From an uncultured Bacteroidales bacterium (lineage in GTDB: Bacteria; Bacteroidota; Bacteroidia; Bacteroidales; Bacteroidaceae): DNA of 47,804 nt. The notes beneath the pieces were generated by a model. It was not told the origin of the DNA and did no database searches. It was given only the letters and a program-made list of their open reading frames with translations. Shown here piece by piece: positions 11,081 to 39,121 of the stretch. A program made the position numbers and the translations under genes. How positions within the stretch are numbered: position 1 is the stretch's first letter; each line of letters opens with the position of its first letter. Where the stretch lies: positions 1 through 47,804 of the forward strand of contig CACZMI010000028.1 of NCBI GenBank assembly GCA_902782245.1, given 5' to 3'.

Positions 11081-12301
11081 ATGAAAGATAACACTTGTTT
11101 GCGGCTGGACGAGATTGCCCAGGCACTCGCCAATGCCGATGCCGGACGTATGGATCCGCAGTTGTCCCAAAAGGACAGAGAGACAATGGAACAGGCGTGC
11201 GTAACCCTTCGTGAGGCGGAGCGCAGAGCCATAGTGAATGTTGAGACCGGACTTGTAGAGAAGTTCCGCGAGAGTGCCGGCAGCATCAACCTGCAGGCCA
11301 AGGAACTCCGGGCACTGGTCACTAAGATGAACAAAATCCCCAAATCGCTTGACATTACAGAGACCGTGATAAAGGAGTGCGTACGCGTGCTCAAGGCCAT
11401 CGCCCTGTGGTGCACCATGTTCTTCCTTATAATATATATGTCCGGCTGCGGTTCCATGACCAAGGCACAGCTAAAGCGTGTCAACTCACTTGCAGTGGTC
11501 AGTGATTCGGCAGTGACCGGACCGGGCAGCGTGCTCCGCGTACTCAATGAGGTGAATCTGGAACGCGGTCTTATGTACGCCGCATCACTGAGCAGCACGG
11601 AGGCCCGTATAGAGGACCTTAACGGATTGGCCGATGCCCAAGCCCAGCTTTCCCGCCTGGCCAAGCAGTCCGATGTATGCGTAAACATACTGGAAAGTTA
11701 CGTCCGCGCCCTCAGGTCTATAAGCAGTGAAACGCGCTGGAAACAGAACGGGACCGAGCTGCGTGGAATAGGCCGTAACATGGATTCTCTGGCCATTGCA
11801 TACAACAGACTTGACTGGGGTGACCTGTACGAGCCCGGCATTGCCAAACAGATAGGAAAGACCAGCGGATATCTGGCACAGCAGTACGGCAAGCGCCGGC
11901 AGCGCCGCATGGTGCAGTCGTTTCTGGAACATGGCGACAAACTGGTTGATGACTGCGTCAAGGCTTTGACCGAGACCCTTAAATCGGCCGATTTCAAATC
12001 AGTCATAGAAAACGAGCGTACCGGACTTGAAAACAATTACCGTGCCTACCTGAACATGACATCCTTGAACGGGACCGTTCCCCTTCCCGATTTTGACCGC
12101 ACTTATCTGGAATGCCGTCTCAAAATCGAGCAGGCGGAAAGCATGCGCCGCCAGTGCATCACCATGCTTCAGGCATTCGGCCGCGCCCACAACGCCCTTC
12201 GCAAGGAGATGTATAACCGCCGCACCTACAGCGAGTTTGCCGACGATCTGTTTGACCTGAACCGTCAGGTACTTGCCCTGGCCAAACTCCTTGAAAAATA
12301 A
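11081..12301 (+). CDS. Helical protein with internal membrane anchor or lipobox, unknown function
   Basis: The 406-residue protein matches no family I recognise. Residues 1-95 are soluble and helical, with heptad-like stretches. Residues 104-122 (LKAIALWCTMFFLIIYMSG) form a hydrophobic segment ending at Cys123 in a lipobox-like YMSGC. The remaining 280 residues are helical and rich in charged residues, as in coiled-coil periplasmic proteins. Either it spans the inner membrane once with an N-terminal cytoplasmic domain, or two proteins are encoded, the second a lipoprotein from an internal GTG (11366 or 11387). A promoter box lies at 11055-11062. It is followed by the aromatic operon leader. 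Confidence 0.75.
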   Translation: MKDNTCLRLDEIAQALANADAGRMDPQLSQKDRETMEQACVTLREAERRAIVNVETGLVEKFRESAGSINLQAKELRALVTKMNKIPKSLDITETVIKECVRVLKAIALWCTMFFLIIYMSGCGSMTKAQLKRVNSLAVVSDSAVTGPGSVLRVLNEVNLERGLMYAASLSSTEARIEDLNGLADAQAQLSRLAKQSDVCVNILESYVRALRSISSETRWKQNGTELRGIGRNMDSLAIAYNRLDWGDLYEPGIAKQIGKTSGYLAQQYGKRRQRRMVQSFLEHGDKLVDDCVKALTETLKSADFKSVIENERTGLENNYRAYLNMTSLNGTVPLPDFDRTYLECRLKIEQAESMRRQCITMLQAFGRAHNALRKEMYNRRTYSEFADDLFDLNRQVLALAKLLEK

Positions 12302-12348
12302 AAAAACAAAAAATAGCTGTCAGGATGACAATGTGTTGAAATGTTGTT

Positions 12349-12356
12349 TACCTTTG
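12349..12356 (+). promoter_or_regulatory. -7 promoter box of the aromatic operon
   Basis: TACCTTTG lies 8 bases before the leader peptide ATG, so the leader transcript begins almost at the leader peptide itself. Confidence 0.7.
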
Positions 12357-12364
12357 CGCTCAAT

Positions 12365-12424
12365 ATGAAAGCAATAAACGCATACTTCTATTACTTTTGG
12401 TTTACCAGACAATACGCCGGGTAA
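12365..12424 (+). CDS. Aromatic amino acid operon leader peptide
   Basis: This 19-codon frame translates to MKAINAYFYYFWFTRQYAG and stops at TAA 12422-12424. Codons 7-13 (12383-12403) are seven consecutive aromatic residues: Tyr, Phe, Tyr, Tyr, Phe, Trp, Phe. Such a run has no plausible origin other than a ribosome-stalling sensor for charged tRNA-Phe, tRNA-Tyr and tRNA-Trp. It starts just after a promoter box and ends 33 bases before a strong terminator that precedes a DAHP synthase, prephenate dehydrogenase and prephenate dehydratase operon. It therefore acts as the sensing part of a transcription attenuator, as in trp and phe leaders of enteric bacteria. Confidence 0.9.
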   Translation: MKAINAYFYYFWFTRQYAG

Positions 12425-12465
12425 TTTGTTGTATGCATACAAATAAGGAATAACAGAGAGCCCGG
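12417..12465 (+). promoter_or_regulatory. Candidate antiterminator of the aromatic attenuator
   Basis: CCGGG (12417-12421, in the last leader codons) can pair with CCCGG (12461-12465, in the left terminator arm). The loop between them holds the perfect palindrome TTGTATGCATACAA (12429-12442), which can fold and bring the two together. A ribosome stalled on the aromatic codons would leave this pairing free; one at the stop codon would cover it. The pairing is short, so this is a model, not an observation. Confidence 0.5.
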
Positions 12466-12488
12466 ATCAATGATTCGGGCTCTTTTTT
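12457..12488 (+). terminator. Attenuator terminator of the aromatic operon
   Basis: The arms AGAGCCCGGATC (12457-12468) and GATTCGGGCTCT (12472-12483) form a 12-bp stem with one G-T pair and a three-base loop, followed by a six-base T-run. It sits between the leader peptide and the first structural gene, the normal place for an attenuator. Confidence 0.9.
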
Positions 12489-12513
12489 GATACGTAAACA
12501 AACACATAAAACT

Positions 12514-13524
12514 ATGATAGCAGTACTTAAAGCCGGAGTCTCAGAGACTCAAAAGAAAAACCTTATCAACTGGATCAAAGGCCAGGGAGTAGACGTACAT
12601 ATCAGTGAAGGACAGTTCCAGACAGTAATAGGTCTGATTGGTGATACCAGCAAGATTGACCCCGACCTGCTGAGCGGACTTGACATCATCGAGTCAGTTA
12701 CCCGCATCAGCGAGCCGTTCAAATGCGCCAACCGCCGTTTCCACCCCGCCGACACCATCGTAGAGATTGGTGAAGGTGAAAACAAGGTAAAGATTGGCGG
12801 CGTCAACTTTGCCATGATAGCCGGTCCCTGCTCGGTTGAGTCCGAGGATCAGATTGTAGGAATAGCACAGGCCGTAAAGGCATCGGGCGCAAAACTTCTG
12901 CGCGGCGGTGCCTTCAAACCCCGCACAAGCCCGTATGATTTCCAGGGAATGGGGGCCGATGGCCTTGAACTGCTGCGCAAGGCACGCAAGGCAACAGGTC
13001 TGCCCATAGTTACCGAGATTATGAGTGAGAAACACCTTGACCTGTTTGAGGATGTTGACCTTATACAGGTTGGTGCCCGCAACATGCAGAACTTTGAGCT
13101 GCTCAAGACTCTGGGCCACACCCGCAAGCCCATCCTGCTTAAACGCGGACTTTCAAGCACCATCAAGGAGTGGCTCATGAGTGCCGAGTACATCATGGCC
13201 GGCGGTAATGAGAACATCATACTGTGCGAGCGCGGCATACGCAGTTACGACACATACACCCGCAACGTGCTTGACCTGAGTGCCATTCCCGTTGTAAAGG
13301 AGCTGTCACACCTGCCCATCATAGTTGACCCCAGCCACGCCACCGGCAAGTCACGTCTGGTTCCGTCCATGAGTCTGGCAGCAGTTGCAGCCGGTGCCGA
13401 CGGACTTATAATAGAGGTGCACAACGACCCCACCCACGCCCTGTGCGACGGTGCACAGTCTCTCACCCCCGCGCAGTTTGACGAGGTTGCAAAGAAAGTA
13501 AACGCCTTAAAACAAATAATCTGA
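12514..13524 (+). CDS. aroF: DAHP synthase, type I-beta with regulatory FBL domain
   Basis: From ATG 12514 the protein has 336 residues. Residues 1-67 form a ferredoxin-like regulatory domain (MIAVLKAGVSETQKKNLINW), and the rest is the KDO8P/DAHP-synthase barrel, with AGPCSVES, RGGAFKPRTSPY, the metal-binding Cys/His/Glu/Asp motifs and IVDPSHATGKS. It condenses PEP and erythrose-4-phosphate, the first step of the shikimate pathway. In Thermotoga-type enzymes the N-terminal domain mediates feedback inhibition by Phe or Tyr. It is the first structural gene of the attenuated operon, so it would be controlled both by tRNA charging and by allostery. Confidence 0.95.
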   Translation: MIAVLKAGVSETQKKNLINWIKGQGVDVHISEGQFQTVIGLIGDTSKIDPDLLSGLDIIESVTRISEPFKCANRRFHPADTIVEIGEGENKVKIGGVNFAMIAGPCSVESEDQIVGIAQAVKASGAKLLRGGAFKPRTSPYDFQGMGADGLELLRKARKATGLPIVTEIMSEKHLDLFEDVDLIQVGARNMQNFELLKTLGHTRKPILLKRGLSSTIKEWLMSAEYIMAGGNENIILCERGIRSYDTYTRNVLDLSAIPVVKELSHLPIIVDPSHATGKSRLVPSMSLAAVAAGADGLIIEVHNDPTHALCDGAQSLTPAQFDEVAKKVNALKQII

Positions 13525-13552: not shown

Positions 13553-14386
13553 ATGATTGTAGCAGTTGTAGGATTGGGTCTGATAGGCGGATCGCTGGCC
13601 AAGGCATACAAGGAGGCCGGCTGGACGGTCTACGGCTATGACCTTAACGAGTCGGTGAGCTGTTTTGCACAGTTGGAAGGCACTCTGGATGCAGTGCTGG
13701 ACAGCAGCAACATAAAGAAATGTGACCTTATCCACATAGCCGTTACGCCCGATGCCGCATGCGGCTGGATAAACGCCCACGCTCCGGAAATAGCCAAGAG
13801 CACAGTAGTGATTGATGACTGCGGAACCAAACGCAAGATTGTGGAGTGCGGAATGAAAGCCGCAGCCCAATACGGATTCACCTACGCCGGCGGTCACCCC
13901 ATGGCAGGAACACACCTGTCAGGTTACAAGAACTCACGCGCCACCATGTTCCAGAACGCATCGATGATAATCATCCCGCCCACACATGATGACATCCAGC
14001 TGCTGGACCGCATAAAGCACCTGCTGGAGCCCATGCAGTTAAAGCGTGTGGTATTTACCACCCCAGAGCAGCATGACAGCATGATTGCATTCACATCACA
14101 ACTGGCCCACGTGGTATCCAACGCCTATATCAAGAGCCCGTCGGCCCAGCAGCACAAGGGCTACAGTGCAGGCAGTTTCCGCGACCTTACCCGCGTGGCC
14201 TGGCTCAACGAGAATATGTGGACAGAGCTGTTCCTTGAGAACAAGGACAATCTGCTACGCGAGATACATACCCTGATTGATAACCTCACCCAGTACGCAA
14301 GTGCCATGGAGGCCGATGACGCCCAGACACTCTGCGCACTGCTGCGTGACGGACGCATAGCAAAAGAACTCTCAGAAAAGAACTGA
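13553..14386 (+). CDS. tyrA: Prephenate dehydrogenase
   Basis: The 277-residue protein opens with the NAD-binding glycine-rich motif GLGLIGGSLAKAY (from residue 7) and contains GGHPMAGTH at residues 113-121, the prephenate dehydrogenase signature with the catalytic His. It decarboxylates and oxidises prephenate to 4-hydroxyphenylpyruvate for tyrosine. It has no chorismate mutase or ACT domain; the mutase activity is provided by the pheA product. It is the second gene of the aromatic operon, with a one-base gap before aroB. Confidence 0.93.
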   Translation: MIVAVVGLGLIGGSLAKAYKEAGWTVYGYDLNESVSCFAQLEGTLDAVLDSSNIKKCDLIHIAVTPDAACGWINAHAPEIAKSTVVIDDCGTKRKIVECGMKAAAQYGFTYAGGHPMAGTHLSGYKNSRATMFQNASMIIIPPTHDDIQLLDRIKHLLEPMQLKRVVFTTPEQHDSMIAFTSQLAHVVSNAYIKSPSAQQHKGYSAGSFRDLTRVAWLNENMWTELFLENKDNLLREIHTLIDNLTQYASAMEADDAQTLCALLRDGRIAKELSEKN

Positions 14387-14387
14387 T

Positions 14388-15434
14388 ATGGAAAAGATCA
14401 CCGTCCACGCATCGGGCACATATGACATCCTTATAAACAAAGGAGATCTGAGTGGCATAGGCCAGGCGCTCCGTGAGCGTTTCAAGCCCTGCACCATTGC
14501 CATTCTGAGCGATGATAAGGTATTCCCCCTGTACGGCAGGACCGTGACCGATGCCCTTGAGGCTGCCGGTTTCAGGACCATAGCCCACGTGATACCCAAC
14601 GGCGAGCAGAGCAAGACGCTTGATAACGTGACCGCATTCATAGACTGCATGGTCCGTGCACAGGTTACCCGTACCGATATGGTGCTGGCTCTGGGCGGCG
14701 GTGTTGTAGGCGATATGGCCGGTTTTGCAGCGGCAATCTACCTGCGCGGAATCCCGTACATCCAGGTGCCCACCACCCTTCTGGCTGCCGTTGACTCATC
14801 GGTGGGCGGTAAGACGGCGGTCGATATCAGCGCCGGCAAGAACCTGGTAGGCGCATTCCACCAGCCCGCCCTGGTCTATTTGGACACCGAGACACTCTCC
14901 ACACTTGACCCGTCAGTATTGCGTGACGGCTTTGCCGAGGTAATCAAATACGGTATCATTCTGGACAGCAACCTGTTCCGGACAGTAGCAACACCCGGCA
15001 CCTTTGACCTGACCAAGGTGATTGCCCGCTGCATAGAGATAAAGCGTGATGTAGTTGAGCAGGATGAGTTTGACAAAGGCCTTCGCGGTCTGCTGAACTT
15101 TGGCCACACATTCGGTCACGCCATAGAGAAACTGAGCGGATTCACCATCACACACGGAAGCGCCGTTGCCCGCGGAATGATCATTGCCGCCAGGGTGGCC
15201 CGCGTTTACGGTTTCACTGACTACACAGACGTAATAACCAAAGTAGTAAAGGATTACGGTTTTGAGACCGATTGTCCCTTTAAAGCCGATGAGCTCTACA
15301 GCGTGATCCTATCGGACAAGAAGCGCAGCGGAGCCGACATTACACTTGTGCTGCCCAAGGAGATTGGCGCATGCACTCTGGAGAAAATGCCTGCCGCGCA
15401 GGTACTTGAACTGATGAAAAAAGCCGGCTTATGA
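14388..15434 (+). CDS. aroB: 3-dehydroquinate synthase
   Basis: The 348-residue protein carries GGGVVGD (103-109), PTTLLAAVDSSVGGKTAVD (from 128) and a late GHTFGHAIEK, which bind NAD and zinc in 3-dehydroquinate synthase. It converts DAHP to 3-dehydroquinate. Length and motif order are normal for the family. The start codon is one base after the tyrA stop, and the stop overlaps aroA by 4 bases, so the three are tightly coupled. Confidence 0.95.
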   Translation: MEKITVHASGTYDILINKGDLSGIGQALRERFKPCTIAILSDDKVFPLYGRTVTDALEAAGFRTIAHVIPNGEQSKTLDNVTAFIDCMVRAQVTRTDMVLALGGGVVGDMAGFAAAIYLRGIPYIQVPTTLLAAVDSSVGGKTAVDISAGKNLVGAFHQPALVYLDTETLSTLDPSVLRDGFAEVIKYGIILDSNLFRTVATPGTFDLTKVIARCIEIKRDVVEQDEFDKGLRGLLNFGHTFGHAIEKLSGFTITHGSAVARGMIIAARVARVYGFTDYTDVITKVVKDYGFETDCPFKADELYSVILSDKKRSGADITLVLPKEIGACTLEKMPAAQVLELMKKAGL

Positions 15435-16696
15435 TTCTACAGGTATCAGGGACAGTATCAGGAAACGTGCAGGTGCCGCCGTCCAAGTCGGTAGCCCACC
15501 GTATGCTCATCTGCGCAGCGCTGTCAGACGCGCCCTGCACAATTGTCTGCCAGAGCGTGAACCGCGATATGGAGGCAACCATGAACTGCCTTAACGCCCT
15601 TGGCGCAAACATAACCTACACAGACGGAAAGTTCAGCGTCCAGCCTATATCAGAGGTCAGGAAAGGCGCAACGCTTGACTGCGGCGAGAGCGGATCCACC
15701 CTGAGGTTCCTGCTCCCTGTAGCCGCCGCACTGGGGGCCGATGCCACATTCATCGGCCAGGGCCGTCTGCCGGAACGTCCCCTCTCACCCCTTTATGAGG
15801 AGATGACCGCCCACGGCGTAAAGATGACAGAGAACGGCCATATGCCGCTCAAGTGCAGCGGAAACCTGCCCGCAGGACTCTACACCATTGACGGCGGCGT
15901 ATCGTCACAGTTCATCTCAGGACTGCTCATGGCCCTGCCGCTAACCGGTATACAGAGCAAGATTGTTGTTACCGGCAAGCAGGAGAGCGCATCATACATA
16001 GGGCTTACCCTGAACGCACTCAGGCAGTTCGGCATAGAGATACAGTCCACAACCGATGGTTACATCATACCCAGCGGACAGGAGTTCACCACCCCGGCCA
16101 CACAGGTTGCAGTGGAGGGAGACTGGTCGGCCGCAGCATTCTGGCTGACAGCAGGTGTAGCAGGCAGCAAGCCCGTTACCTGCACCGGACTCAACTACGA
16201 GTGCTCTGCCCAGGGTGACCGCCGCATTGTAGACGTGCTCCGTAAGATGGGTGCCGATATCGCAACCGCAGGCAATACGGTTACCGCACGCCCGTCAAGC
16301 CTGACCGCAGCACAGATAGACTGTGCCGATATCCCCGATCTGGTTCCAATACTCGCTGTCGCAGCATCATCAGCCCAGGGAACTACAATCTTTGACAACA
16401 TACGCCGTCTGCGTATCAAGGAGAGTGACCGCGTGCAGTCCATACTGCAACTGCTGGGTATGGCCGGCATATATGCGTTTGCATCGGACAATACCCTTAC
16501 GGTTACGGGCGGTCCTGCTAAAAACTGCTCATACAATCCGTCGGGCGATCACCGCATGGCCATGGCTGCGGCTGTACTGGCATCGGCCAAGAATGTTAAG
16601 ATTACCATAAGCGATGCCGAGTGCACCGCCAAGTCATACCCCGCCTTCTTTGATGATTTCAACGCATTGGGAGGCATAGTTCTGAAACAACAGTAA
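15431..16696 (+). CDS. aroA: 5-enolpyruvylshikimate-3-phosphate synthase
   Basis: The 421-residue protein has VPPSKSVAHR (near 15-24), CGESGSTLRF (84-93), the RIKESDR segment and GDHRMAMAAAV, all active-site motifs of EPSP synthase. It adds the enolpyruvyl group of PEP to shikimate-3-phosphate. The second-residue alanine of the usual GNAGTAxR motif is not present here; the CGESGSTLRF form is the class II-like (ES rather than NA) variant. It overlaps aroB by 4 bases (ATGA) and precedes pheA by 7 bases. Confidence 0.95.
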   Translation: MILQVSGTVSGNVQVPPSKSVAHRMLICAALSDAPCTIVCQSVNRDMEATMNCLNALGANITYTDGKFSVQPISEVRKGATLDCGESGSTLRFLLPVAAALGADATFIGQGRLPERPLSPLYEEMTAHGVKMTENGHMPLKCSGNLPAGLYTIDGGVSSQFISGLLMALPLTGIQSKIVVTGKQESASYIGLTLNALRQFGIEIQSTTDGYIIPSGQEFTTPATQVAVEGDWSAAAFWLTAGVAGSKPVTCTGLNYECSAQGDRRIVDVLRKMGADIATAGNTVTARPSSLTAAQIDCADIPDLVPILAVAASSAQGTTIFDNIRRLRIKESDRVQSILQLLGMAGIYAFASDNTLTVTGGPAKNCSYNPSGDHRMAMAAAVLASAKNVKITISDAECTAKSYPAFFDDFNALGGIVLKQQ

Positions 16697-16703
16697 ATAC
16701 CAT

Positions 16704-17846
16704 ATGGACCTTACGGATTACAGAAAACAGATTGACGGTATCGATGAGGAGATATGCCGTCTGTTCCAACAGAGAATGCAGGTGGTAAATACCATCGGCG
16801 AATACAAGAGAGAGCATGACATACCGGTAAGCGCCGGCTCGCGTGAGCGTGAGGTGCTGGCACACGTATCCAAGCAGTTGCCCGAGGACCTGGAGGATTT
16901 CGGCCGCGTACTGTACCGCTCCATCTTTGACATAAGCAAGGCTTACGAGGCCATGTACAAGGAGAAGGACTCCCCGCTCTACAAGGCTATTTCAGGTTTA
17001 ATAAATGCCGATCCCGCCCCCTTCCCCAAGCGCGCCGTGGTTGCCTGCCAGGGACGTGAGGGCGCATACTCGCAGATTGCCGCCGAAAAGCTCTTTGAGG
17101 TGCCCGAGATTATGTTCAACAACACCTTTGAGGGCGTTATCCGCATGGTCACCGACGGTCTGTGCGAGTATGGCATACTGCCCATCGAGAACTCCACCGC
17201 AGGTTCGGTAAATGAGATCTATGACCTGTTGGTTAGATACAACGTACACATAGTACGCAGCACACGCGTGCGCGTTGATCACCAGTTGCTGGCTGCCAAG
17301 GGAGCCCGTTTCCAGGACATCAAGACCATATACTCCCATCCGCAGGCCATCAACCAGTGCTCACACTTCCTGGCCGCCCTCAAGGATGTAGAGATAATCC
17401 CGTCCGATAACACCGCCATGGCCGCCCAGAGGGTTGCCAAGGACCCCAACCGCACAACCGCCTCAATATCATCCAAGAGCTGCGTTGACCTCTATAATAT
17501 GGAGGTGCTCGCCGAGGATATACAGAACTTTGACAGCAACCACACCCGCTTTATCTGCATAGCCAAGAACGCCCGCATCTATCCGGGTGCCAACCGCACC
17601 AGTATCATGATGGTCATGAGCCACAAGCCCGGTACATTGTTCAGCGTCCTGAGCAAGTTCAATGCCACCGGCGCCAACCTGGTCAAACTGGAGTCACGCC
17701 CCATCCCCGGCCGCGACTTTGAGTTCATGTTCTATTTTGACATTGAGCTGTCCATCTATGACAAGAAGTTTGCGTCACTTATATCAGAGTTGGACCATTG
17801 CGGCGAGCAGTTCAAGTATTTCGGAACTTATCAGGAGATTATATAA
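16704..17846 (+). CDS. pheA: Bifunctional chorismate mutase/prephenate dehydratase (P-protein)
   Basis: The 380-residue protein has an N-terminal chorismate mutase helix domain (DYRKQIDGIDEEICRLFQQR, residues 4-23), a prephenate dehydratase domain (GREGAYSQIAAEKLF, IENSTAGSVNEIYDLL, and NHTRFICIA with the Thr-Arg-Phe catalytic motif) and a C-terminal ACT domain (HKPGTLFSVLSKFNATG, then LESRPIP). It makes phenylpyruvate from chorismate; the ACT domain is the normal site of phenylalanine feedback. It supplies the chorismate mutase step used also by the tyrA product. Confidence 0.95.
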   Translation: MDLTDYRKQIDGIDEEICRLFQQRMQVVNTIGEYKREHDIPVSAGSREREVLAHVSKQLPEDLEDFGRVLYRSIFDISKAYEAMYKEKDSPLYKAISGLINADPAPFPKRAVVACQGREGAYSQIAAEKLFEVPEIMFNNTFEGVIRMVTDGLCEYGILPIENSTAGSVNEIYDLLVRYNVHIVRSTRVRVDHQLLAAKGARFQDIKTIYSHPQAINQCSHFLAALKDVEIIPSDNTAMAAQRVAKDPNRTTASISSKSCVDLYNMEVLAEDIQNFDSNHTRFICIAKNARIYPGANRTSIMMVMSHKPGTLFSVLSKFNATGANLVKLESRPIPGRDFEFMFYFDIELSIYDKKFASLISELDHCGEQFKYFGTYQEII

Positions 17847-17855: not shown

Positions 17856-18284
17856 ATGAAAAAGATTCTTGTCATAAACGGTCCCAACCTGAACCTTCTG
17901 GGTCTGCGCGAGCCGGCCATCTACGGCAACCGTGACTTTAAGGCTCTTGAGGCTTTCATTCTGGAGAACGGTCTGGACCTGGGTCTTCAGATAGAGCTTT
18001 TCCAGTCCAACCATGAGGGCGCCATCGTGGATAAGATCCAGCAGGCATACGGCGTGTTTGACGGCATAGTCATCAATCCCGCCGCTTACACCCATACAAG
18101 CGTTGCCATACTTGATGCGCTCAAAGGAGTGGCCATCCCTACCGTCGAGGTTCACTTGAGCGATGTTGACTCACGCGAGGAGTTCCGCCGCCACTCATTC
18201 GTTTCACTTTATGCCTCAAAGGTGATAAAAGGCAAGGGTTTTGACGGCTACAGAGAGGCTCTGGAGTACTTTTCCGGAAAATAA
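17856..18284 (+). CDS. aroQ: Type II 3-dehydroquinate dehydratase
   Basis: The 142-residue protein has VINGPNLNLLG (6-16), the catalytic Tyr23, QSNHEGAIVDKI (50-61), INPAAYTHTS (73-82) and the active-site His100 in VHLSDV. Type II enzymes are small dodecamers that dehydrate 3-dehydroquinate with a Tyr base. It is the last gene of the aromatic operon and is followed by a clean terminator. The shikimate dehydrogenase, shikimate kinase and chorismate synthase genes needed to finish the pathway are not in the window. Confidence 0.95.
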   Translation: MKKILVINGPNLNLLGLREPAIYGNRDFKALEAFILENGLDLGLQIELFQSNHEGAIVDKIQQAYGVFDGIVINPAAYTHTSVAILDALKGVAIPTVEVHLSDVDSREEFRRHSFVSLYASKVIKGKGFDGYREALEYFSGK

Positions 18285-38984: not shown

Positions 38985-38991
38985 CGCCCAG

Positions 38992-39076
38992 AATGAAAGG
39001 GGGTGCCCAATGATGGGCTGAGATTATACCCTTAGAACCTGATCCGGACAGTGCCGGCGGAGGGATTGGATTTCTT
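38992..39076 (+). ncRNA. TPP riboswitch (THI element)
   Basis: The conserved THI-box blocks occur in order: GGGGTGCC (from 38999), GGGCTGAGA (39015-39023), TACCC (39027-39031), GAACCTGATCCGG (39036-39048) and TGCCGGCGGAGGGA (from 39052). These form the thiamine pyrophosphate-binding core. The riboswitch lies 45 bases before the TonB receptor gene and follows a promoter box. It would shut the downstream unit off when TPP is plentiful, probably by acting on translation start or an internal terminator; no strong terminator follows, so a translational mechanism is more likely. Confidence 0.93.
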
Positions 39077-39121
39077 AGTTATTGGTATACCCTTTTCATT
39101 TGGATTATTAATTAAATCTAT

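Follow-up and report, generated by a model that had tools for sequence, protein, structure and literature searches.

A leader-peptide attenuator of clostridial type that very probably entered a Bacteroidota lineage together with its aromatic amino acid operon

Introduction

How did an operon for aromatic amino acid synthesis in an uncultured Bacteroidales bacterium come to be preceded by a short frame packed with aromatic codons, which amino acids would such a leader sense, and from where was it obtained? These questions are raised by a 47,804-nucleotide stretch of DNA (hereafter, the window), in which the frame and an adjoining hairpin lie directly in front of a DAHP synthase gene.

Attenuators of the type found in Escherichia coli pheL and trpL consist of regulatory codons, an antiterminator and a terminator, and in Firmicutes the T-box senses uncharged tRNA before amino acid operons. 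An attenuator at the aroR-aroF locus of Corynebacterium glutamicum was reportedly described by Neshat in 2014. Here we argue, from the conserved frame, the terminator, the competing pairing, co-variation between species, the phylogeny of DAHP synthase and the type of promoter, that the window carries a ribosome-mediated attenuator of clostridial type which entered the Bacteroidota lineage together with the DAHP synthase-tyrA-aroB-aroA-pheA-aroQ operon, a reading to which we assign a probability of about 0.88. Judging from its sequence, the leader very probably switches the aromatic operon on when these amino acids run short.

The operon and its leader frame

The features of the locus are collected in Table 1. 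The operon is borne out as the initial annotation had named it, four of its six genes scoring above NCBIfam cut-offs and two (tyrA and pheA) below, and the DAHP synthase-tyrA-aroB order recurs in 81 of 105 loci when the relatives are taken as the best 80 of at least 592. The 19-residue frame likewise lies, as read from the sequence, between a promoter box and a 12-bp terminator in front of this operon.

Table 1. Coordinates of the leader, its regulatory elements and the downstream genes in the window
Feature	Position	Strand	Basis or remark
Putative promoter -7 box TACCTTTG, TAnnTTTG type	12349..12356	+	8 nt before leader ATG; consensus match
Leader peptide frame MKAINAYFYYFWFTRQYAG	12365..12424	+	19 codons; ATG 12365, stop TAA 12422-12424
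Possible segment 1:2 (protector) pairings	12380..12436	+	GCATAC 12380-12385/GTATGC 12431-12436; TTACC 12402-12406/GGTAA 12420-12424
Regulatory codons Tyr-Phe-Tyr-Tyr-Phe-Trp-Phe	12383..12403	+	sequence read; in-frame aromatic enrichment
Antiterminator strand CCGGGT	12417..12422	+	pairs with GCCCGG 12460-12465
TGTT, second antiterminator helix with AACA 12452-12455	12427..12430	+	86.8% of cells paired, 17 rows
Intrinsic terminator hairpin AGAGCCCGGATC-AAT-GATTCGGGCTCT	12457..12483	+	12 pairs, loop AAT; sequence, fold, covariation
Terminator T-run	12483..12488	+	first T also in stem
DAHP synthase	12514..13524	+	NCBIfam NF006421 and TIGR01361 above cut-off
tyrA, prephenate dehydrogenase	13553..14386	+	best matches are prephenate dehydrogenase models, all below curated cut-offs
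aroB, 3-dehydroquinate synthase	14388..15434	+	TIGR01357 above cut-off
aroA, EPSP synthase	15431..16696	+	TIGR01356 above cut-off
pheA, chorismate mutase and prephenate dehydratase	16704..17846	+	NF008865 213.8 bits (cut-off 219); chorismate mutase models below cut-off
aroQ, type II 3-dehydroquinate dehydratase	17856..18284	+	TIGR01088 above cut-off

In 24 Bacteroidota leaders, aromatic residues make up a fraction of 0.875 of the run when it is read in frame, versus 0.17 and 0.16 in the other two frames, and in all 92 leaders assembled below the aromatic content of the best segment peaks in the leader's own frame, a test that leans to this frame because the segment had been picked in it. Phe and Tyr replace each other within the run between species (L011 and L013 compared with L001), the positions remaining aromatic, and the end of the leader varies in length: in L004-L007 and L009 a TAG stop takes the place of the final residues, and in some relatives it follows TRQ or TRR. 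A short frame rich in the amino acids made by the operon, one of the marks of a ribosome-mediated attenuator, is accordingly found in front of it.

At the leader end (window 12401-12421), TTTACCAGAC and GCCGGG are near-invariant in Bacteroidota, beyond the apparent need of either the peptide or the pairings; the exceptions are a single A to G change in TTTACCAGAC of L028 and a difference in GCCGGG of L022. The core ACCAGAC-N2-6-GCCGGG has no second copy in the window's own genome, the leader site being its sole occurrence. Elsewhere in this genome (L002, G000:C56), a second DAHP synthase-like gene with what appears by eye to be a chorismate-mutase-like tail starts at the end of a gene that resembles a helicase by eye and leaves no space for a leader. 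Within the window, a TPP riboswitch scores above its gathering score at 38989-39082.

The leader in Bacteroidota and their nearest relatives

At E ≤ 1e-100, DAHP synthase was detected at 24 places in the genus, spread over 22 of its 37 genomes, and in two of 295 genomes of the order, namely that of the window itself and that of L028, from a different family, for an order set in which at least 90% completeness was required and with the own genome 85.7% complete. The other 15 genomes of the genus have no match at this threshold, and four of these, 96-100% complete, are also without a match to the Anth_synt_I_N domain.

In an alignment of the sequence upstream of the 24 genus places, the promoter box, the leader, the terminator and the region surrounding the leader stop are conserved, and the sequence further upstream is not. 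Together with L028 and two Bacteroidaceae bins (L029 and L030), these places make up 27 Bacteroidota loci, 24 of which have both leader and terminator, the loci without a leader being L026, L029 and L030; the conservation of frame, aromatic codons and terminator that the initial annotation had suggested looking for in related genomes is present. Two genomes of the genus contain two DAHP synthase copies each (L023 and L026 in G013, L011 and L025 in G003), which may reflect mixed bins; L026, the second copy in G013, has no leader in the 175 nt examined.

A search of named genomes with the DAHP synthase alignment returned at least 592 relatives, of which the best 80 were used: two Bacteroidaceae bins, four Spirochaetota and 74 from Clostridia, their families or Firmicutes. 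A strict scan for open reading frames of 8-40 aa with at least six aromatic residues per window of eight, located no more than 400 nt upstream of DAHP synthase, recovered an aromatic frame in 80 of 104 loci versus 0.3% of shuffles; the 24 misses include L016 and L028, which were read misoriented and have the leader once turned. A relaxed scan (threshold 5, up to 45 aa, corrected orientation) recovered an aromatic leader in 92 of the 104 loci, comprising 24 of 27 Bacteroidota, 66 of 73 Clostridia and two of four Spirochaetota, the relatives outside the genus being drawn from the best 80 of at least 592 and the rows being mostly metagenome bins. In the count, the frame of L031 was begun at its second ATG; L064 (57 nt of upstream sequence) and L002, L003 and L027 (paralogues, or duplicating the window place) were left out of the scans. 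The Phe/Tyr-rich leaders are exemplified by MKNSYSNASYFYFYYYFTYNR in L036, MKPMAYGTFYFYFCYFFMAKDICAA in L031 and MTFTAYYNTFYFYSFYYFTNSRG in L032 (Treponemataceae), and a hairpin with a T-run stands before the gene in 91 of the 92 leader loci (the exception is L060). No leader was found in 12 of the 104 loci (L026, L029, L030, L046, L065, L079, L080, L092, L099, L104, L105 and L106).

Such frames were also surveyed in the class Clostridia. Among 196 genomes of the class, drawn evenly, 142 encode a DAHP synthase at E ≤ 1e-70; upstream DNA was taken for the best match in 110 of these, mostly the better-scoring ones, and proved too short in L114 and L151, leaving 108 loci. A frame with at least six aromatic residues in eight is present in 43 of the 108 (1.2% of shuffles) and one at a threshold of five in 58 (7.6% of shuffles). 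A T-box at gathering score was detected upstream of DAHP synthase in three of 80 Clostridia-class loci scanned, which, compared with strong leaders in 43 of 108, suggests that in Clostridia leader peptides before DAHP synthase are commoner than T-boxes. Several class-survey leaders (within L142-L198) share a second motif past the aromatic run, such as FYFSFGYF and FYFSAGYFCC, perhaps a nascent-peptide or RNA feature.

The terminator and the competing pairing

Folding of the region, proposed as a check in the initial annotation, gave a z-score of -4.57, with none of 200 dinucleotide shuffles as good. Structure was counted in 17 of the 24 Bacteroidota leaders. In these rows 96.5% of the terminator cells are paired, and both-side changes occur at four of the 12 pairs, a number to which 15 of 500 shuffles get; the covariation score is matched by none of 500 shuffles, and the count of further pair types is not above that of shuffles. 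An intrinsic terminator between the leader and the first gene is, accordingly, seen in sequence, fold and covariation alike. A simple consensus scan of 11900-12900 listed neither this hairpin nor a promoter on the + strand, which, on our reading of the sequence, would reflect the Bacteroidota type of the box and a T-run that partly extends the stem.

The pairing of CCGGG near the leader stop with the left arm of the terminator, put forward in the initial annotation, is supported. Its cells are 97.1% paired in the 17 Bacteroidota rows with little variation; with the antiterminator and the 1:2 pairings both nearly constant, covariation is no test of either within this phylum. Compared with segment shuffles, the antiterminator reaches p ≤ 0.05 in 53 of 91 loci, that is, in 22 of 24 from Bacteroidota (the other two being L022 and L028) and in 31 of 67 others. 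Moreover, in many loci a stretch close to the leader stop, or directly behind it, can pair with the left terminator arm; this helix differs in sequence between species with complementarity kept, and wholly different helices occur, for instance GTAATTTGTGC/GCACAGATTAC in L067 and AATACGGTTATTTT/AAGATGACCGTATT in L072. When partners were swapped among 65 non-Bacteroidota loci, with L062 and L096 left out as near-duplicates, the native duplex of antiterminator and terminator arm had a mean energy of -16.5 versus -12.5 kcal/mol for swapped ones (permutation p 5e-5), and the native partner came among the top tenth for 28 arms, where 6.5 were expected, and first for eight. Native duplexes thus outperform swapped ones, which indicates co-evolution of the two strands.

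In folding with a stalled ribosome, free RNA was taken to start 12 nt downstream of the first nucleotide of the A-site codon. With the stall at the Trp codon or at the last Phe codon of the run, the antiterminator core forms with a predicted probability of 0.99-1.00 in RNA that ends at 12465-12478; when the ribosome is placed on the stop codon, the probability is 0.00. In this way, computation predicts an antiterminator that is incompatible with the terminator and becomes available when the ribosome stalls. Once the full terminator has been transcribed it wins in all states folded, and therefore the switch would have to be kinetic.

A protector role of the 1:2 hairpin was considered and rejected: its pairs are conserved, but neither covariation nor folding before terminator completion supports it. 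In the 17 Bacteroidota rows 97.1% of its cells are paired, equal to shuffles and with no both-side change, and its folding probability is 0.00 to 0.18 as long as the terminator is incomplete and 0.88 once it is finished. Until then, the model without a ribosome forms the antiterminator, not the 1:2 hairpin.

The amino acids probably sensed

The 68 non-Bacteroidota leaders contain Phe and Tyr at fractions of 0.187 and 0.166 and Trp at 0.002. Trp is found in 19 of 24 Bacteroidota leaders, always at one place, versus three of the 68 others among the nearest relatives; in the class survey it is found in 20 of 58 candidates, some of them weak (L109 is the same locus as L043, from Sporobacter termitidis DSM 10068, and L174 has a T-box). 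Since Trp is lineage-specific, the general sensor would be one for Phe and Tyr. The initial annotation had proposed that one leader senses all three aromatic amino acids, and of this claim the composition of the run stands, as it holds Phe, Tyr and Trp, but generality does not, given that five of the 24 Bacteroidota and 65 of the 68 other leaders are without Trp. Three-way sensing is possible, as far as sequence can tell, only where Trp is present.

We give roughly even odds to the alternative that sensing is confined to Phe and Tyr, or even to Phe, and that the Trp codon is a neutral aromatic substitution. The scarcity of Trp among the leaders just described is what this alternative predicts, and C. 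glutamicum aroR, whose leader has Phe-Tyr-Phe, is reported to answer to the availability of Phe and not of Tyr (PMC11802643). It has more difficulty with the fixed position of Trp in most Bacteroidota leaders and with its presence in the class-survey candidates. The distribution of Anth_synt_I_N can be read both ways. The domain was not found in the own assembly (85.7% complete), in line with Phe/Tyr sensing; across the genus it was found in 18 of 37 genomes, in 15 of 22 with DAHP synthase versus three of 15 without (p 0.007, kinship uncorrected), and, against Phe/Tyr sensing, in 14 of 18 genomes with Trp leaders versus one of four whose leaders are without Trp (Fisher p 0.077, kinship uncorrected). 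In all these counts partial hits in G006, G015 and G034 were scored as present, and many assemblies are incomplete.

A Trp leader of the trp genes themselves was considered and rejected: no Anth_synt_I_N was found in the own genome, 85.7% complete. In 12 relatives, the sequence up to 350 nt before the Anth_synt_I_N gene has a frame with at least two Trp codons in four cases (L229, L231, L232 and L234), which we take for chance occurrences inside the preceding coding sequence, trpB-like by eye.

Start signals of the leader

The leaders of Bacteroidota and of their relatives differ in how transcription and translation appear to start. In 23 of 24 Bacteroidota leaders a TAnnTTTG box ends 8 nt before the leader ATG (9 nt in L018), L020 being without it, and such a box lies within 30 nt of the leader in two of 68 non-Bacteroidota loci. 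TAnnTTTG is the Bacteroidota promoter consensus as quoted in a study on Bacteroides thetaiotaomicron, in which about 3.7% of 5' UTRs are given as shorter than 10 nt (PMC7366714). In 41 of the 68 non-Bacteroidota loci, versus 0.1% of shuffles, a sigma-70-like promoter that matches at 11 or more of 12 positions lies no further than 120 nt upstream of the leader, and no Bacteroidota locus has a match above nine of 12. A Shine-Dalgarno-like 4-mer precedes none of the 24 Bacteroidota leaders versus 53 of the 68 others. The 8-9 nt between box and ATG would leave only a few nt of 5' UTR, and common descent may explain why this spacing is fixed. Apparently, clostridial sigma-70 and Shine-Dalgarno signals were exchanged after the transfer for the host-type TAnnTTTG box.

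Origin of the operon and its attenuator

In a tree of DAHP synthase, 14 Bacteroidota rows form a single clade (SH-aLRT 95) whose sister is the Clostridia row L031 (SH-aLRT 98 for the 15 together), amid further Clostridia. This is a quick, unrooted tree without bootstraps, built from the rows nearest to the query (92 of 105, close genus members having been thinned). The aroB gene of the window was compared with 118 other genomes of the order, giving 109 matches with a maximum of 198.8 bits, and with 118 genomes of the class Clostridia, where scores reach up to 378 bits and 90 of 100 matches exceed 198.8. On the strength of the tree and these scores, at least DAHP synthase and aroB look clostridial. 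Furthermore, since the sister row and most other rows have the leader, its transfer together with the operon is the simplest reading. We infer a single move of the complete operon, which apparently crossed between phyla in company with its attenuator, both being refitted afterwards. The device does not appear to be an invention of Bacteroidota, tree, leader counts and aroB scores all pointing to a clostridial pedigree of both operon and leader.

Only the enzymes may have been transferred, with the Bacteroidota attenuator arising later and converging on the clostridial ones, which we consider unlikely. The sequences of antiterminator and terminator are indeed unlike between Bacteroidota and Clostridia, short Phe/Tyr-rich frames may evolve easily, and the leaderless Bacteroidaceae bins L029 and L030 form the sister group of the remaining Bacteroidota rows, as would be expected of a later gain. 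Nevertheless, with such a leader before the same gene in L031 and in most tree rows, its presence is the simpler ancestral state, and the distances from leader stop to hairpin overlap between the groups (30-41 nt in Bacteroidota and 13-72 nt in the others). A related proposal, that a clostridial T-box was swapped for the leader after transfer, was rejected: the nearest clostridial relatives carry leaders, and a T-box is present in none of the 20 loci from the nearest 80.

Vertical inheritance of the operon within Bacteroidota, with loss from most other lineages, appears less probable still. DAHP synthase is patchy even inside the genus, as repeated loss would have it, but the aroB genes that most other genomes of the order do possess are distant, with scores well below those reached in Clostridia, and the DAHP synthase clade adjoins a Clostridia row amid Clostridia. 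Finally, although the hairpin sits in the intergenic region after the gene at 11081-12301, the notion that it merely terminates that gene and that the short frame is due to chance has next to no probability and was rejected on the alignment of relatives and on shuffles, given that the promoter box and the conserved frame intervene, that the element stays with DAHP synthase where the preceding sequence is unalignable between relatives, and that such a frame appears in only 0.3% of shuffles.

Discussion

For the clostridial-type attenuator proposed here, we envisage stalling, the response to amino acids and the order of RNA folding as follows. Transcription would start a few nt before the leader ATG from the host-type TAnnTTTG promoter. 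A shortage of charged tRNA-Phe or tRNA-Tyr, and perhaps also of tRNA-Trp in this lineage, would stall the ribosome in the Tyr-Phe-Tyr-Tyr-Phe-Trp-Phe run, leaving CCGGGT free to pair with GCCCGG of the left terminator arm, so that RNA polymerase would read into the operon. With all tRNAs charged, the ribosome would reach the stop codon and cover CCGGGT, the terminator would form, and transcription would end before the operon.

The mechanism as such is a known one. The element shares it in outline with the Phe_leader and Trp_leader families of the E. coli pheL and trpL type, but the window scores far below their gathering scores (22.3 bits versus 55 for RF01859 and 13.9 versus 41 for RF00513). 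The best sub-threshold amino acid leader is Thr_leader (RF00506, 26.3 bits versus 55), and no Rfam family matches the leader region at gathering score, so that these known leader families were rejected as assignments. The T-box (RF00230), for its part, differs in being absent: it has no match in the window at gathering score and none at E ≤ 10 in 12300-12530, and it is rare or missing before DAHP synthase in the clostridial loci discussed above.

The initial annotation had also held that a shikimate-pathway attenuator for all three amino acids is unusual and that no well-described example is known in Bacteroidota. As to the first part, Phe/Tyr leaders of DAHP synthase have precedents, likened here by description. 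In C. glutamicum, the aroF leader aroR carries Phe-Tyr-Phe before the DAHP synthase gene and its stalling is said to raise transcription (PMC11802643, PMC4046766); this system differs in belonging to Actinobacteria, in its run of three aromatic residues and in its answer to Phe, not Tyr. In Acholeplasma, uORFC-13-1 is a short Phe-containing frame before aroF with an apparent intrinsic terminator; unlike the leader studied here, it is described for Acholeplasma and environmental sequences only, and at least one Phe is named in it and no Phe/Tyr run (PMC8632094). No Rfam family of that name is among the window matches. In a study of five genomes, Clostridium novyi among them, two candidate uORFs with F and Y are tied to shikimate genes (PMC6429828), and these may be members of the same clostridial class. 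The second part of the claim stands in that, among the matches listed in open-licence PubMed Central, no paper was found to describe an aromatic leader for Bacteroidota or gut Clostridia, nor such a transfer or promoter exchange. Within the phylum, short frames in 5' UTRs have been taken as likely attenuation leaders in Flavobacterium psychrophilum, where they precede amino acid operons (PMC9723704), and in B. thetaiotaomicron (PMC7366714), with no aromatic operon named in the available parts of these papers. As judged from sequence comparison, the element is very probably a real attenuator, distinguished by its horizontal acquisition, its host promoter and its lineage-specific Trp codon.

The own genome also contains a second attenuator-like leader, MRLQGLIIIDIIIPDNRCERA, before a leuA-like gene (L222, G000:C20, 2323-2480, minus strand). 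Three Ile codons in a row occur twice in this frame, a TAACTTTG box lies upstream of it, a 15-pair hairpin with a T-run stands before the gene, and the fold z-score is -6.95. Given this second leader, control by leader peptides may be native to the organism too.

A bolder version of the history, which we offer tentatively and would not bet on at even odds, is that the circuit crossed from Clostridia to Bacteroidota with its operon, swapped sigma-70 and Shine-Dalgarno signals for a host promoter that makes a nearly leaderless RNA, and gained Trp to become a three-way sensor. If the Trp codon counts, one leader would report on all three products of a branched pathway. Furthermore, the findings suggest that an attenuator coupled to translation can pass from one phylum to another as one unit with the operon behind it, despite different starts of transcription and translation, and this locus offers a natural reporter with which to test how ribosome and RNA polymerase are coupled in Bacteroidota.
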